DNA of 47,341 bases, taken from IMG/VR virus record IMGVR_UViG_3300022910_000007, positions 1-47,341 of that record; one strand, given 5' to 3'. The position numbers were made by a program, and so were the translations under genes. The notes below the pieces were generated by a model. The model did not search any database and had not been told where the DNA came from. It saw only the letters and a list, made by a program, of their open reading frames with translations. The DNA comes from a virus. Position 1 is the first letter of the stretch; each line of letters starts with the position of its first letter. Positions 37,850 through 42,143 of the stretch are shown here, piece by piece.

Positions 37850-38303
37850 ACAACGTTACTCCGAAGCCCACAAACTATACTACGATATTAACTTTCCCAA
37901 CGTAGTTAAGGATGGATTTTATTCGCCGCCTGTAATGCCTGATGTGATTACAACAAACGGGTTAACTAAGTACTGCCAGAATATGATCACCTGGTTAGGC
38001 GGTAGATCGAAGCGGGTTAATGTTGTAGTAAGGGCATCTGATAAAATAACCACTGAAGCATCGGGCGCAAAATTTACTGATAAGCGTTATACTAGATCGG
38101 TAAAAAAGAACACAGCCGATTTATTAAATGTTTTACGAGGCACTTCTATTGATATTGAAATTAAAAATAAGCATACAGGTGATTATATGAAGCCGGGACA
38201 ATGGGAAGAAAAAGCTAATGCTGAACGTGCTGGTGGAAAGTACTGGATCGTCACTTGTGTAGAAGATTTTTTATTTGAGTTGGATGGGTTTTTGTATGGG
38301 TAA
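37839..38303 (+). CDS. PD-(D/E)XK (VRR-NUC-like) nuclease
   Basis: I start this 154-aa protein at ATG 37839. The core shows NTADLLNVLRGTSIDIEIKN near residues 90-109 and KPGQWEEKANAERAGGKYWI near 115. These are the D, E-x-K and Q signatures of VRR-NUC/Holliday-junction-resolvase-like folds. A nuclease in the replication operon could process branched DNA before packaging. An upstream TTG (37830) would add only three residues. Confidence 0.7.
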   Translation: MNYKQRYSEAHKLYYDINFPNVVKDGFYSPPVMPDVITTNGLTKYCQNMITWLGGRSKRVNVVVRASDKITTEASGAKFTDKRYTRSVKKNTADLLNVLRGTSIDIEIKNKHTGDYMKPGQWEEKANAERAGGKYWIVTCVEDFLFELDGFLYG

Positions 38304-38308
38304 TAGTG

Positions 38309-38316
38309 TATCTTTA
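38309..38316 (+). promoter_or_regulatory. Promoter -7-like element before the kissing-loop leader
   Basis: TATCTTTA, one base off the Bacteroidota TAnnTTTG pattern, four bases upstream of the structured leader at 38321. No convincing -33 element is present at the usual spacing, so this is tentative. Confidence 0.3.
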
Positions 38317-38320
38317 TAAT

Positions 38321-38405
38321 GCCGGGTCACAGCGGCTGAAATTGTTTTATTTTCCCTGAGGGAGTAGGTCACTGTGACGGCCGAAACCTCAGGGATTATT
38401 TTTAT
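38321..38405 (+). ncRNA. Structured RNA leader A of the primase gene (kissing-loop candidate)
   Basis: Hairpin 1 is GCCG (38321-38324)/CGGC (38333-38336) with the 8-base loop GGTCACAG. Hairpin 2 is CCCTGAGG (38354-38361)/CCTCAGGG (38387-38394), perfect. Loop sequence GTCACAG (38326-38332) is exactly complementary to CTGTGAC (38372-38378) within hairpin 2, so a seven-pair loop-loop contact is possible. Inside hairpin 2, GGTC and GGCC can form a short inner stem. ATTATTTTTAT follows, so hairpin 2 is also terminator-like. The layout matches leader B at 41439. Confidence 0.6.
38354..38405 (+). terminator. Terminator-like hairpin in leader A
   Basis: Eight perfect pairs, CCCTGAGG/CCTCAGGG, followed by ATTATTTTTAT. 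It lies 15 bases before the primase ATG, so it would control transcription into the primase gene. Confidence 0.55.
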
Positions 38406-38419
38406 ACTCGCACCTTGAA

Positions 38420-40183
38420 ATGATCTCAAACATTGAAGAAATAAAAGCTGCTGCAAACATCATTGATATTATCTCTGATTACGTTAAGCTAAAACAGGAC
38501 GGGGTAAACATGGTTGGCAAATGCCCATTCCATGAAGAAAAAACCCCATCATTCAAAGTACATAAGACACAACAATTTTTTAAATGTTTCGGTTGTGGTA
38601 AGTCGGGTGATGCAATCGCATTCCTTCAGGAGTTTAACAATATAAATTATATTGAAGCTATAAAATTGATAGCCACTAAGTGTAATATTGGGATTGAAGA
38701 AACAGATAAACGCAAGTATGAAAAACCAATACCGAGAACAGAACAACCAAAAGATAATATAATTCAATACTTCGTAAAACGAAATATATCTGCTGGTACT
38801 GTACGACATTTTAATATTACTGAAGCGGTGGAATGGATGCCTTTGGCTAAAAAAGAAATTCCTGTTATTTGTTTTAACTATTATAAAGACGGCGAACTAA
38901 CTAATATTAAATTCAGAGGCAAGGATAAGGATTTTAAGCTATCAAAGAACGCTGAAAAAATATTTTACAACATTGATTCTATTTCAGATGAAAACGAAGC
39001 TGTTATTGTTGAGGGTGAAATTGATTGCATGAGTATGCACGAAGCCGGGATAAGAAACGTGGTATCTATTCCTAATGGCACACCTCCAGCAGGAAGTCAA
39101 CTTAATATTGAGTACTTAAATAACTGTTGGAAAGCATTTGAAGGCAAGGATAAAATAATTATAGCTACCGATAATGACGAACCAGGTAAAGCGATCCGTG
39201 ATGAATTAGCTAGAAGATTAGGTTATGAACGCTGCTATATGGTAGAATATCCTAAAGATTGTAAAGATGCTAATGATATTTTAAAACTTCATGGCAAGGA
39301 TGCCGTCAGATACATGATCTCATACGCAAAGAAATGGCCAATACAAGGCGTTCTTATGATGGATGATCTTTACCCGATAGTAGAAGATTACTATAATAAT
39401 GGCTATCCCAAAGGGTATGAAGCTGGATTAGGAGATTTTGATGATTACCTAAAGTTTTCTGGTGGGCAAATGACAGTATTAACTGGATCTCCGGGCAGTG
39501 GGAAGTCTGAATTTTTAGACTGGTTAACAACATCACTTGCTAAAAAACATAATTGGAAGTTCGCTGTTCTATCTTTTGAAAATCCTGCCGCTATTCATGT
39601 TACTAAACTAATGGAAAAGTTTATAGGCTTATCATTTTCTCATAGAAAAGATCATAATCACAGGATGGATAATAATCAATTTAAAGAAGGTGTTGGATTA
39701 ACTGATCTATATTTTTCATTTATAGATATTGAACAATGTGAAGTTGATATTCAAAGCATACTATCAAAATGCAAAGAACTTGTTTTGCGGCTAGGTGTAA
39801 AAGGAATAGTTATTGATCCGTGGAATTACATTGAGCATAAAGTTCCTGCTGGTTATACCGAAACGCAGTATATTTCAGAAGCATTATCTTTAGTAAAGGA
39901 GTTTGCTATTAAAACAAATACCCATGTTTTTATTGTAGCACACCCTCGTAAGTTAATGAAGGATCAAAAGACAGGGCAATACCCTGTTGCTACGATGTAT
40001 GATGTATCTGGATCGGCGCATTTCTTTAATAAAACTGATAACGGTTTATCAATTCATAGAGATTTTAGTAATGGAGTTGTTGATGTTTATATTCAAAAAG
40101 TTAGGTTTTCCTGGCAAGGTATGGTAGGATTTGTTTCTTATGAATTTGATACAATGACTAGAAAATATATTCAAATAAATTAA
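38420..40183 (+). CDS. Primase-helicase (DnaG/Twinkle-like)
   Basis: This 587-aa fusion supplies both priming and unwinding. The N-terminus has a CHC2 zinc ribbon (CPFH near residue 35, CFGC near 56). A Toprim domain follows (VIVEGEIDCMS near 194, IIATDNDEPG near 246). The C-terminal half is a RecA-like DnaB/Twinkle helicase with Walker A GSPGSGKS near 356. The protein resembles T7 gp4 in layout. Its gene is preceded by the structured leader A, so its level is probably regulated. No separate DnaB gene is needed. Confidence 0.93.
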   Translation: MISNIEEIKAAANIIDIISDYVKLKQDGVNMVGKCPFHEEKTPSFKVHKTQQFFKCFGCGKSGDAIAFLQEFNNINYIEAIKLIATKCNIGIEETDKRKYEKPIPRTEQPKDNIIQYFVKRNISAGTVRHFNITEAVEWMPLAKKEIPVICFNYYKDGELTNIKFRGKDKDFKLSKNAEKIFYNIDSISDENEAVIVEGEIDCMSMHEAGIRNVVSIPNGTPPAGSQLNIEYLNNCWKAFEGKDKIIIATDNDEPGKAIRDELARRLGYERCYMVEYPKDCKDANDILKLHGKDAVRYMISYAKKWPIQGVLMMDDLYPIVEDYYNNGYPKGYEAGLGDFDDYLKFSGGQMTVLTGSPGSGKSEFLDWLTTSLAKKHNWKFAVLSFENPAAIHVTKLMEKFIGLSFSHRKDHNHRMDNNQFKEGVGLTDLYFSFIDIEQCEVDIQSILSKCKELVLRLGVKGIVIDPWNYIEHKVPAGYTETQYISEALSLVKEFAIKTNTHVFIVAHPRKLMKDQKTGQYPVATMYDVSGSAHFFNKTDNGLSIHRDFSNGVVDVYIQKVRFSWQGMVGFVSYEFDTMTRKYIQIN

Positions 40184-40211
40184 GTATATTTAATACTGCT
40201 TACTTATTATA

Positions 40212-40316
40212 ATGAAATTAATTTACACGAAATTACCGGCGCACAGACGTTATCTCACTCCGAAAGGTGTTATGATAAGTAAGCCGTTTGTGTGTCCGGT
40301 ACTTACGTTTTTATGA
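40212..40316 (+). CDS. Small ORF before the initiator gene (34 aa)
   Basis: ATG at 40212 encodes a basic 34-aa peptide beginning MKLIYTKLPAHRRYLTPKG. Its stop overlaps the initiator ATG as ATGA, the arrangement used throughout this genome. The overlap is the main support. It may be a coupling leader, not a functional protein. Confidence 0.45.
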   Translation: MKLIYTKLPAHRRYLTPKGVMISKPFVCPVLTFL

Positions 40317-40873
40317 AAAAAGATGCTTACTACTTTAGCCATGATGCCAATGCGTCAAGTGATCCAAAATGCGCTGCTTTAATTAATGATTTTGGGATGA
40401 AGGGGTACGGGTTTTATTGGATGATGATAGAAATTTTACACCAGCAAAAAGGGGGTAAACTTGAGAAGTTTCCAAAACTAATGGAAGGCCTAGCACACCA
40501 ATTTAGAGTTGAAAAAGATTTTGTAGTGAAGCAAATCGAAGCATTGCTTCACGATTATTTTTTGCTTCAAGAAGATGATAAATTTATCTGGAGTGATCGT
40601 GTTTTGCGAAATTTGGATGAAAAAAACGATAAACGGGAAGCTAGGGTAGAAGCTGGAAGGATTGGAGGTATAAAATCTGGATTATCAAGACAATCGAAGC
40701 AAAACGAAGCACCGCTTAAAGCAATCGAAGCACCGCTTACAAAATCGAAGCAAAGTAAAGTAAAAGAAAGGAAAGAAAAGGAAAGTATTAATGGCAATAC
40801 AGATTTTTCTGGCGAAAAAAAGGAATACAATGCAGGCGAATTTATTCCTCCTAAAAAAGGAATGGTTTATTGA
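40313..40873 (+). CDS. Replication initiator-like protein, DUF4373 (Lin1244/Lin1753 domain)
   Basis: The 186-aa protein begins MKKDAYYFSHDANASSDPKC, followed by GMKGYGFYWMMIEIL and DKREARVEAGRIGG, the Lin1244/Lin1753-type N-terminal domain found in phage replication initiators. The C-terminal part is a low-complexity basic linker and an acidic tail. The start is ATG 40313; an in-frame GTG at 40292 would add seven residues. The linker-coding DNA contains direct repeats that look like iterons (see 40534-40752), as in the lambda O gene. Confidence 0.75.
   Translation: MKKDAYYFSHDANASSDPKCAALINDFGMKGYGFYWMMIEILHQQKGGKLEKFPKLMEGLAHQFRVEKDFVVKQIEALLHDYFLLQEDDKFIWSDRVLRNLDEKNDKREARVEAGRIGGIKSGLSRQSKQNEAPLKAIEAPLTKSKQSKVKERKEKESINGNTDFSGEKKEYNAGEFIPPKKGMVY
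40526..40552. repeat. Inverted repeat in the initiator gene enclosing an iteron
   Basis: GTGAAGCA (40526-40533) and TGCTTCAC (40545-40552) are exact inverted arms around an 11-base centre that starts with the decamer AATCGAAGCA. Confidence 0.55.
40534..40752. repeat. Iteron-like direct repeats in the initiator gene, replication origin candidate
   Basis: The decamer AATCGAAGCA occurs at 40534-40543, 40692-40701, 40723-40732 and 40743-40752, with a variant AACGAAGCA at 40703-40711. The last three exact copies and the variant cluster within 61 bases, with CGAAGC starts 10, 21 and 20 bases apart, about whole helical turns. CGAAGCACCGCTTA is present twice, 21 bases apart. An AT-rich stretch follows at 40880-40930. 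This arrangement matches an origin of the lambda O type. Confidence 0.6.
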
Positions 40874-40931
40874 TGATACAAGTGATTGAAATTAAATAAC
40901 TAACTTTATTGAATAATCAATATTTTTTCAT

Positions 40932-41213
40932 ATGAGAGGTGGAGCAAGGCCGGGATCTGGTCGTAAAACTAAGGTAGACGAGGATATGGTTCGAAATCAA
41001 TCTATGCAAGCTATAACAGAGCTTTATGGAAGTGTCGAGGAAGGGCTTAAAACACTGCTTAGATCAGGAGAGGCATCTTTAATAAAATTTGTTTACGAAC
41101 ACGCTATCGGTAAACCAAAAGAAAAAGTTGAGTTGTCGGCTGATTCGGATGCAACACCTATCATAAACATAAACGTAATAAGAACGAAGAAAGAAATTGA
41201 TGATTCGTTGTAA
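40932..41213 (+). CDS. terS: Putative small terminase subunit/DNA-binding protein
   Basis: This 93-aa protein starts with the basic GGARPGSGRKTKVDEDMV segment seen on many TerS-type DNA-binding proteins. It continues with a helical TLLRSGEASLIKFVYEHAIG and GKPKEKVELSADSD, which is typical of small terminases in Bacteroidota phages. TerS recognises the packaging start and loads TerL. It lies about 8 kb upstream of terL on the circular map, so the two are not adjacent. The gene symbol is a suggestion. Confidence 0.6.
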   Translation: MRGGARPGSGRKTKVDEDMVRNQSMQAITELYGSVEEGLKTLLRSGEASLIKFVYEHAIGKPKEKVELSADSDATPIININVIRTKKEIDDSL

Positions 41214-41436
41214 TGATTTTCATACATAGGGTTAATGGTTTACGTCCTGGAGTTTCTACTTCGGGACTTCTTGTAAATAAGAGAGCCGGGTAGAAACCCA
41301 GCTCGTTATCAAAACTAATTGTTATCCTATGAAAACAGACCTTACTGTAGAAACAGTCTGATCGAGAAATTGACTAGAAAATAAAGTTACTACCATTTGA
41401 TTAAAATATGAAAACTTTTATTATCTTAGTTATCTG
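41214..41436 (+). other. Non-coding region with several hairpins, candidate packaging site or leader
   Basis: This is the first part of the largest gene-free stretch (41214-41531). Elements: GTTTCTAC (41252-41259) pairs perfectly with GTAGAAAC (41290-41297). The competing hairpin GAGC-c-GGG/CCC-a-GCTC is at 41283-41304, and ACTGT/ACAGT with loop AGAA is at 41344-41357. Two tiny ORFs begin ATGAAAAC: 41329-41361 (10 aa, MKTDLTVETV) and 41408-41437 (9 aa, MKTFIILVI). Being next to the TerS candidate, it is also a natural place for a pac or cos site. No known RNA family is recognised. Confidence 0.45.
41396..41429 (+). promoter_or_regulatory. Candidate promoter of the methyltransferase leader
   Basis: TTTG at 41396-41399, 22 bases, then TATCTTAG at 41422-41429, one base off TAnnTTTG. 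A start site near 41436 would begin the transcript right at the structured leader (41439). Confidence 0.35.
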
Positions 41437-41438
41437 AT

Positions 41439-41531
41439 GCCAGTGGTGAGGCTGGCAAAAACTTTTTAGGGCTTCGTAGTCTTGTTTAATCCTCACCGAT
41501 TAGCTTGGTTATTGAAGCCCTGATTTATTTT
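41439..41531 (+). ncRNA. Structured RNA leader B of the methyltransferase gene (kissing-loop candidate)
   Basis: Hairpin 1 is GCCAG (41439-41443)/CTGGC (41452-41456) with the 8-base loop TGGTGAGG. Hairpin 2 has the outer stem AGGGCTTC (41468-41475)/GAAGCCCT (41514-41521), perfect, and the inner stem TAATC (41487-41491)/GATTA (41498-41502) with apical loop CTCACC. An 11+11 internal loop separates outer and inner stems. CTCACC is exactly complementary to GGTGAG (41445-41450) in loop 1. GATTTATTTT follows, so hairpin 2 is terminator-like, and the ATG is 10 bases behind it. It looks like a riboswitch or attenuator; no known class matched by eye. Confidence 0.65.
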
Positions 41532-42143
41532 ATGAAAGTATTAAATCTAAGATGTGGTGTTGGGGGAAATAGAAAACTATGGGAAGGTGTAGAAGTAACA
41601 GCTATTGAAAATATTCCAGAGATTGCAGCAGTTTATCAAAGGTTGTACCCAAATGATACCGTTATTGTGACAGATGCAAACGAATATTTAGAGCAGCATT
41701 ATTCAGAATTTGATTTTATATGGGATTCGCCAAGTTGCCAAAAAGAAAGTAGGATGGTAAAGTTTACAAGACATAAAAACAAACACTTGCCTTCGTTAGA
41801 GGTTTACAGGACTGTTATATTCTTACAGAATTTCTTTAGAGGTAAGTGGGTTGTTGAAAATGTTATTCCATACTATAAACCATTAATTGAACCTACGGTT
41901 AAATGTGGGAGGCATTTATTTTGGAGTAATTTCCCAATAACTTCTTTAGAAATAAAGCAACCAAAAAATACAATAAACCTCGCATCATTGGCTGGTAAAA
42001 AAATTATGATGGACTGGCTTGGTATTCACTACGAAGAAAATATTTATTACAAAGGGAATCATTGTCCTGCCCAGGTCCTAAGAAATTGTGTTCATCCAGA
42101 ATTAGGGTTGCATATCTTAAAACAATTAAATTTACATATATGA
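41532..42143 (+). CDS. DNA cytosine-5 methyltransferase-like protein
   Basis: The 203-aa protein begins MKVLNLRCGVGGNRKLW, a motif I-like SAM site, followed by EVTAIENIPEIAAVYQRLYP and the catalytic-loop equivalent SPSCQK near residue 69. VVENVIPYY near 111 matches motif VI (ENV). The usual motif is SPPCQ; the proline before Cys is replaced by Ser but the catalytic Cys is kept. The protein lacks the long target-recognition domain of classical Dcm enzymes, as is usual for this phage subgroup. The start is ATG 41532, behind the structured leader. Confidence 0.75.
   Translation: MKVLNLRCGVGGNRKLWEGVEVTAIENIPEIAAVYQRLYPNDTVIVTDANEYLEQHYSEFDFIWDSPSCQKESRMVKFTRHKNKHLPSLEVYRTVIFLQNFFRGKWVVENVIPYYKPLIEPTVKCGRHLFWSNFPITSLEIKQPKNTINLASLAGKKIMMDWLGIHYEENIYYKGNHCPAQVLRNCVHPELGLHILKQLNLHI

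Follow-up and report, generated by a model that had tools for sequence, protein, structure and literature searches.

Bacteroidetes phages are abundant in the gut, the sea and fresh water, and to our knowledge hardly anything is known about the control of their genes. The IMG/VR virus record analysed here (47,341 nt, referred to as the window) carries, ahead of a primase gene and again ahead of a DNA-methyltransferase-like gene, two leaders in which a short hairpin is followed by a longer one that encloses the complement of the first loop. This raises the questions of whether both leaders belong to one class of RNA, and what such an RNA would do at the start of a replication operon.

Two leaders with one layout

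The leader ahead of the primase gene (copy 1) lies on the plus strand, as do all features described here for both copies. It is preceded by a -7 promoter box of the Bacteroidetes type TAnnTTTG, recognised from the sequence (TATCTTTA, 38309-38316), which overlaps the end of the upstream gene region; the transcript is expected to start at the foot of the first hairpin, H1. H1 (38321-38336) consists of GCCG (38321-38324), the loop GGTCACAG (38325-38332) and CGGC (38333-38336), with GTCACAG (38326-38332) as the contact-making bases of the loop. An A/T-rich linker (TGAAATTGTTTTATTT, 38337-38352) connects H1 to the second hairpin, P2/P3 (38353-38395), in which the outer stem P2 pairs TCCCTGAGG (38353-38361) with CCTCAGGGA (38387-38395), the internal loop is GAGTA/GAAA, the inner stem is GGTC/GGCC and the apical loop is ACTGTGAC. 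The exact complement of GTCACAG, CTGTGAC (strand K, 38372-38378), occupies the 8-nt apical loop of the inner hairpin GGUC-ACUGUGAC-GGCC, and the contact is therefore a loop-loop (kissing) contact; the isolated 7-bp loop duplex is worth -9.0 kcal/mol. Directly 3' of P2 follows a U-rich run resembling the tail of a terminator (TTATTTTTA, 38396-38404). The primase/helicase gene (38420-40183), with zinc-ribbon DnaG, Toprim and DnaB-like domains, starts with the ATG at 38420, which is 24 nt past P2 and beyond the interval given for the leader in the first-pass annotation. The short hairpin at 38321 reported there, with a loop complementary over seven bases to a segment of the second hairpin, is present in the sequence, and so is the second hairpin, although its stem is one pair longer than the 8 bp claimed.

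The promoter of copy 2 (41396-41429) reads TTTG ... TATCTTAG, with the latter box at 41422-41429. H1 of this copy (41438-41457) is built from TGCCAG, the loop TGGTGAGG and CTGGCA, and its contact bases are GGTGAGG (41445-41451). P2 (41466-41523) pairs TTAGGGCTTC (41466-41475) with GAAGCCCTGA (41514-41523) and encloses strand K (CCTCACC, 41491-41497), which here lies towards the inside of a long hairpin; the isolated loop duplex reaches -11.3 kcal/mol. The U-rich run TTTATTTT (41524-41531) abuts the ATG at 41532 of the DNA-methyltransferase-like gene (41532-42143), which matches the DNA methyltransferase family phrog_363 with an E value of 1.3e-10 and has no Pfam match. The copy at 41438-41523 thus has the same order of parts in different letters, as had been proposed. 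The ATGCC ... GGC ends shared by both first hairpins are a coincidence, since other members of the class are without them, and a common trans-acting target of the two loops is not expected, because the loops differ.

Between the end of a gene at 41213 and the copy 2 promoter, three further hairpins are found (41240-41370). Hairpin A (41244-41267) contains GTTTCTAC, while its complement GTAGAAAC lies in or at the loop of both hairpin B (41283-41304) and hairpin C (about 41339-41363). The surrounding stretch of the window (41156-41377) has 90% identity in the relative L206, and another CCTGTAGAAACAGAGG hairpin is located near position 11316 of L205. These hairpins are possibly a second RNA or protein-binding element.

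Recurrence and covariation across relatives

When the whole window was searched with a simple descriptor, matches were obtained at the two copies only, copy 2 being matched in two registers, and the other strand gave no match. Markov-shuffled windows gave 0.22 matches per strand with the same descriptor, and a stricter one matched once in 10 shuffled windows. Relatives were retrieved with the primase, methyltransferase, DUF6291 and DUF4373 proteins. A first loose scan for kissing loops was too noisy in A/T-rich DNA, and stricter descriptors with shuffled controls were therefore used. The locus descriptor asked for an H1 whose loop can pair by at least 6 bases with the loop region of a following stem, then a T-rich tail and an open reading frame; three scans of this kind gave 20 versus 3, 24 versus 0 and 30 versus 4 matches in real and Markov-shuffled loci. 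A structure-only scan of 2.43 Mb, in which neither tail nor ATG was required and selection for either was thus avoided, returned 50 matches, compared with 6 after Markov shuffling. In nearly all phage leaders among the 50, a T-rich run lies directly 3' of P2 and is followed by an ATG, on the coding strand. Removal of near-duplicates left 46 matches, and about 40 distinct ones look like true members. Matches in L050, L082, L262 and L114 (minus strand) were set aside as noise, as they lack a promoter box or lie within coding sequence. The element occurs in the cultured phages Cellulophaga phi10:1 and phi19:1 and Flavobacterium lillamy9-1 and elemoA. In scans of genome contigs, the primase alignment identified two Bacteroidota MAG contigs, and the DUF6291 alignment found nothing.

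Conservation of the contact can be followed in 18 homologous leaders of DUF6291 genes. Their loop-loop helix, counted with a pseudoknot bracket, is 98.1% paired and both sides have changed at 4 of its 9 pairs; over the whole structure 99.0% of cells are paired, compared with 30-45% when the rows are slid by 1-3 columns, where cell counts are not independent events because the 18 rows are kin, a kinship that the slid controls share equally. The covariation score of these leaders is 0.300, compared with 0.122 after shuffling, and none of 500 shuffles reaches 0.300. Loop pairs that alter in step are AGGTAGAATC/GATTCTACC, AGGTCGAATC/GATTCGACC and AGGTCGTATC/GATACGACC, together with AACTGGAATC/GATTCCAG and AGGTAGTAGC/GCTACTACC. 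The primase leader of L205 is almost unchanged from copy 1, including a near-identical H1, and those of L204 (a Chitinophagaceae MAG), L203 (a Saprospiraceae MAG), L207 and L208 differ in their stems and loops but not in their layout; one P2 position of L208 is unpaired as drawn. The proposal of a real RNA class is therefore borne out by conservation in related phages with compensatory changes, and the loss of contact across relatives that would have spoken against it did not occur.

The position of the loop segment, which in most members abuts the 3' arm of H1 with 0-2 nt on its 5' side, together with the covariation identifies the fold as an H-type pseudoknot. The pairing between H1 and K covers 6-9 bp across members, occasionally 10-11, and the linkers between H1 and P2 are mostly 15-20 nt long. 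The subfamilies of the element share no sequence conservation with one another.

Two short sequence features recur. AAC(N)TT is often found in the linkers between H1 and P2 (20 of 43, compared with 3.0 after shuffling), where it perhaps makes groove contacts in the pseudoknot. The internal loop between P2 and P3 appears in unrelated stems as GAGUA/GAAA, GGAU/UGAA or GGA/GAA (window 38362-38386, L204, L203 at 9750, L208, L230 and L251), which suggests a conserved non-canonical motif; by eye, the GAGUA/GAAA version of copy 1 and L204 resembles the bulged-G (loop E) motif.

A chance pair of hairpins, or a site acting at the DNA level (an origin, say, or a palindrome bound by a protein), would agree with the single descriptor instances that arise in shuffled sequence, but in our reading it is refuted by the covariation, the structure-only scan and the promoter-box enrichment described below. 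The strong excess over shuffles and the constant strand on which the element lies with respect to genes, promoter and ATG likewise leave this explanation a negligible likelihood. The existence of a class of kissing-loop leaders and its architecture are practically beyond doubt.

Position in the transcript and proposed mode of action

Of the 46 elements, 29 have a TAnnTT[TA]G box no more than 30 nt ahead of H1, compared with 2.5% of random places; for a relaxed -7 box the count is 35 of the 46, compared with 9.3%. In Flavobacterium, the sigma-A box TAnnTTTG has been mapped to positions -12 to -5 (PMC9723704). As the -7 box sits just upstream of H1 in most elements, this hairpin is probably the very 5' end of the transcript, and the element can be assigned with high confidence to leader RNAs at the transcript start. 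The element is a leader RNA, cis-acting and about 75-105 nt long, with which early or replication-region transcripts of Bacteroidetes phages begin.

The genes behind the leader include replication genes (primase/helicase, DUF6291, DUF4373, DnaD-like replication initiators, a primosomal protein and helicases), DNA methyltransferases, HNH nucleases and small unknown proteins; no SSB is among the downstream genes identified. The suggested co-regulation of replication and DNA modification is thus matched by the kinds of genes, which are mostly these, while co-regulation itself is unsupported. Primase homologues have the element upstream in L203, L204, L205, L207 and L208, and those of L002 and L206, which start directly behind or inside another reading frame, are without it. 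Where the window has copy 2, L205 and L206 carry the element ahead of another gene and no methyltransferase intervenes; in L205, the gene directly behind it is the one that follows the methyltransferase in the window. Because the downstream gene is swapped in L205 and L206 and the primases of L002 and L206 lack the element, the unit is promoter plus leader, tied to the start of a transcription unit, and not a primase- or methyltransferase-specific signal. A comparison of window positions 41532-42143 with 11426-11640 of L205 shows that the methyltransferase-like gene is absent at this place in L205, which gives it the look of an exchangeable insert, with the leader in front as the fixed part.

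In the leaders of all members, a GC-containing stem is followed at once by a U-run, as in an intrinsic terminator. The distance from P2 to the start codon is 9-14 nt in 29 of 43 elements, with a peak at 11-13 nt and a range of 6-43 nt. The T-rich run adjoins P2 even where the ATG is 24-43 nt away (copy 1, phi10:1 and L241), and this constancy of the run against a more variable ATG supports a terminator-like P2. In background genes, the final 12 nt ahead of the ATG contain 3.8 T and 5.3 A, and T-rich spacers are therefore not the local norm. Our tentative preference is for a promoter-proximal, tertiary-folded terminator (attenuator) that would set read-through into replication operons. The 5'-terminal H1 would pair by its loop with strand K inside P2, P2 and the U-run would form an intrinsic terminator sited in the leader, and kissing contact and terminator would make up one compact co-transcriptional fold. 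This fold would set the share of RNA polymerase that continues into the replication operon, and a phage or host factor binding the fold or the polymerase could shift that share. From sequence it cannot be told whether kissing would promote or relieve termination. A generic terminator scan listed the P2 of neither copy, owing to its loop limit of 8 nt.

The 11-13 nt peak could instead be a sign of a role in translation. The leader would then be a translation or mRNA-stability module, in which the whole mRNA 5' end, to about -10, is closed off by the kissing fold and the U-rich start region is left unstructured, so that the message is protected or, in hosts without Shine-Dalgarno initiation, the ribosome is positioned; a phage protein would possibly act as repressor, in the way that gp32 of T4 represses at its pseudoknot operator. 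The common 9-14 nt spacing, the location of H1 at the presumed 5' end, the replication genes downstream, as in the gene 32 case, and the absence of Shine-Dalgarno sequences from Flavobacterium mRNAs (PMC9723704) agree with such a module. It does not explain why the T-rich run stays behind P2 when the ATG is 24-43 nt off, nor a T-rich spacer that background genes do not share, and with several unrelated genes downstream, autorepression by one product is improbable. This module is accordingly rated as somewhat unlikely.

Within the terminator reading, one compact tertiary fold is favoured over a switch between two folds. A long nested antiterminator helix containing K was rejected by a test of its flanks, which pair with H1 no better than shuffled flanks do (mean z +0.6, n=41). 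Taken over these 41 members, the complementarity does not extend beyond the loop, which argues that the selected feature is a loop-limited contact between intact hairpins and leaves a classical two-state attenuator with mutually exclusive helices unsupported. The idea of such a helix came from folding truncated leaders, some of which adopted different folds; these suggested that, before P2 is complete, the H1 and K regions might join in one long helix. Regulation by a terminator whose tertiary contact is fixed is, however, less usual.

Replication-gene leaders with a terminator or with pairing of a loop to a downstream segment are also known from plasmids, namely the pT181 and pIP501 attenuators and the IncI/IncB repZ pseudoknot, and these depend on antisense RNA and alternative helices. 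The likeness is one of place and parts: the phage leaders lie upstream of replication genes and expose loops of 7-10 nt, and an antisense RNA might bind the H1 loop, as happens in the rep leaders of pT181/pIP501 or IncI plasmids. In the phage, however, the loops differ between two copies in one genome, several different genes lie downstream, and there is no sign of a long alternative antiterminator helix. Antisense control is rated as very unlikely.

A broader reading is that of a widespread, nearly sequence-free RNA class of Bacteroidetes phages, in which the first two hairpins of a transcript kiss within one molecule and thereby influence the host RNA polymerase or the ribosome directly, switching on replication operons with no conserved ligand or protein site needed; this is possible, if doubtful. 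The element is recognisable by shape and not by sequence, which is why sequence-profile searches such as Rfam miss it. A leader RNA that recurs at the start of replication operons of Bacteroidetes phages, including cultured ones, offers a directly testable model for replication timing in these phages, and, since its loop pairs can be exchanged, it supplies a natural collection of kissing-loop control parts that are independent of one another.

Relation to known RNAs

Rfam 15 gave 0 matches in the window at the gathering threshold, only a tRNA and a group II intron, both elsewhere, in 13 member loci, and only weak matches far below threshold in a low-threshold search of 38280-41560. No function can be borrowed, since Rfam has no match, and the open-licence literature searched held nothing relevant on kissing-loop leaders in Bacteroidetes phages. 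The class looks new, as a new kind of phage control element.

In topology, the leader is similar to the pistol ribozyme, in which a 5' hairpin uses its loop to pair with a strand lying inside the following stem and the linker is A-rich. The ribozyme was dropped as a candidate, as there was no Rfam match even at low threshold and its conserved core was not seen; in the phage element, moreover, K is usually located in a hairpin loop. The ColE1 RNA I/RNA II kissing complex has 7-nt loops fully paired loop to loop, but it is intermolecular and has neither leader nor terminator, whereas the phage contact is intramolecular.

The putL site of phage HK022 is about 70 nt long, forms two stem-loops and is located just downstream of PL (PMC9378689). 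Like putRNA, which acts in cis without a dedicated protein (PMC9378689), the element appears as a phage leader directly behind an early promoter, and its layout and -7 boxes reproduce the two stem-loops in that position. RNA-only antitermination of this type, with the leader binding polymerase and resisting pausing and termination further downstream, would suit the promoter-proximal site, the length of 75-105 nt, the two hairpins resembling putL (PMC9378689) and the association with transcription units instead of genes. Yet putRNAs occur in different hosts and share a conserved sequence, of which the kissing-loop elements have almost none, PMC9378689 describes no contact between the putRNA loops and mentions neither kissing nor a pseudoknot, and a U-run and start codon do not follow it directly, whereas the element has its own terminator-like tail. 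Antitermination in the manner of putRNA is therefore considered unlikely.

The operator of T4 gene 32 is likewise a 5' pseudoknot in a leader upstream of a replication gene, and the stretch from it to the start codon is rich in A and U (PMC535899). This H-type pseudoknot measures about 28 nt, has no second closed hairpin beside it, serves one gene that is autoregulated by its product, and has an unstructured region of more than 40 nt. Neither SSB autoregulation nor UUAAA repeats running to the start codon are found for the phage leaders. Unlike the gene 32-type operator, the kissing-loop leaders hold P2 between the pseudoknot and the ATG.
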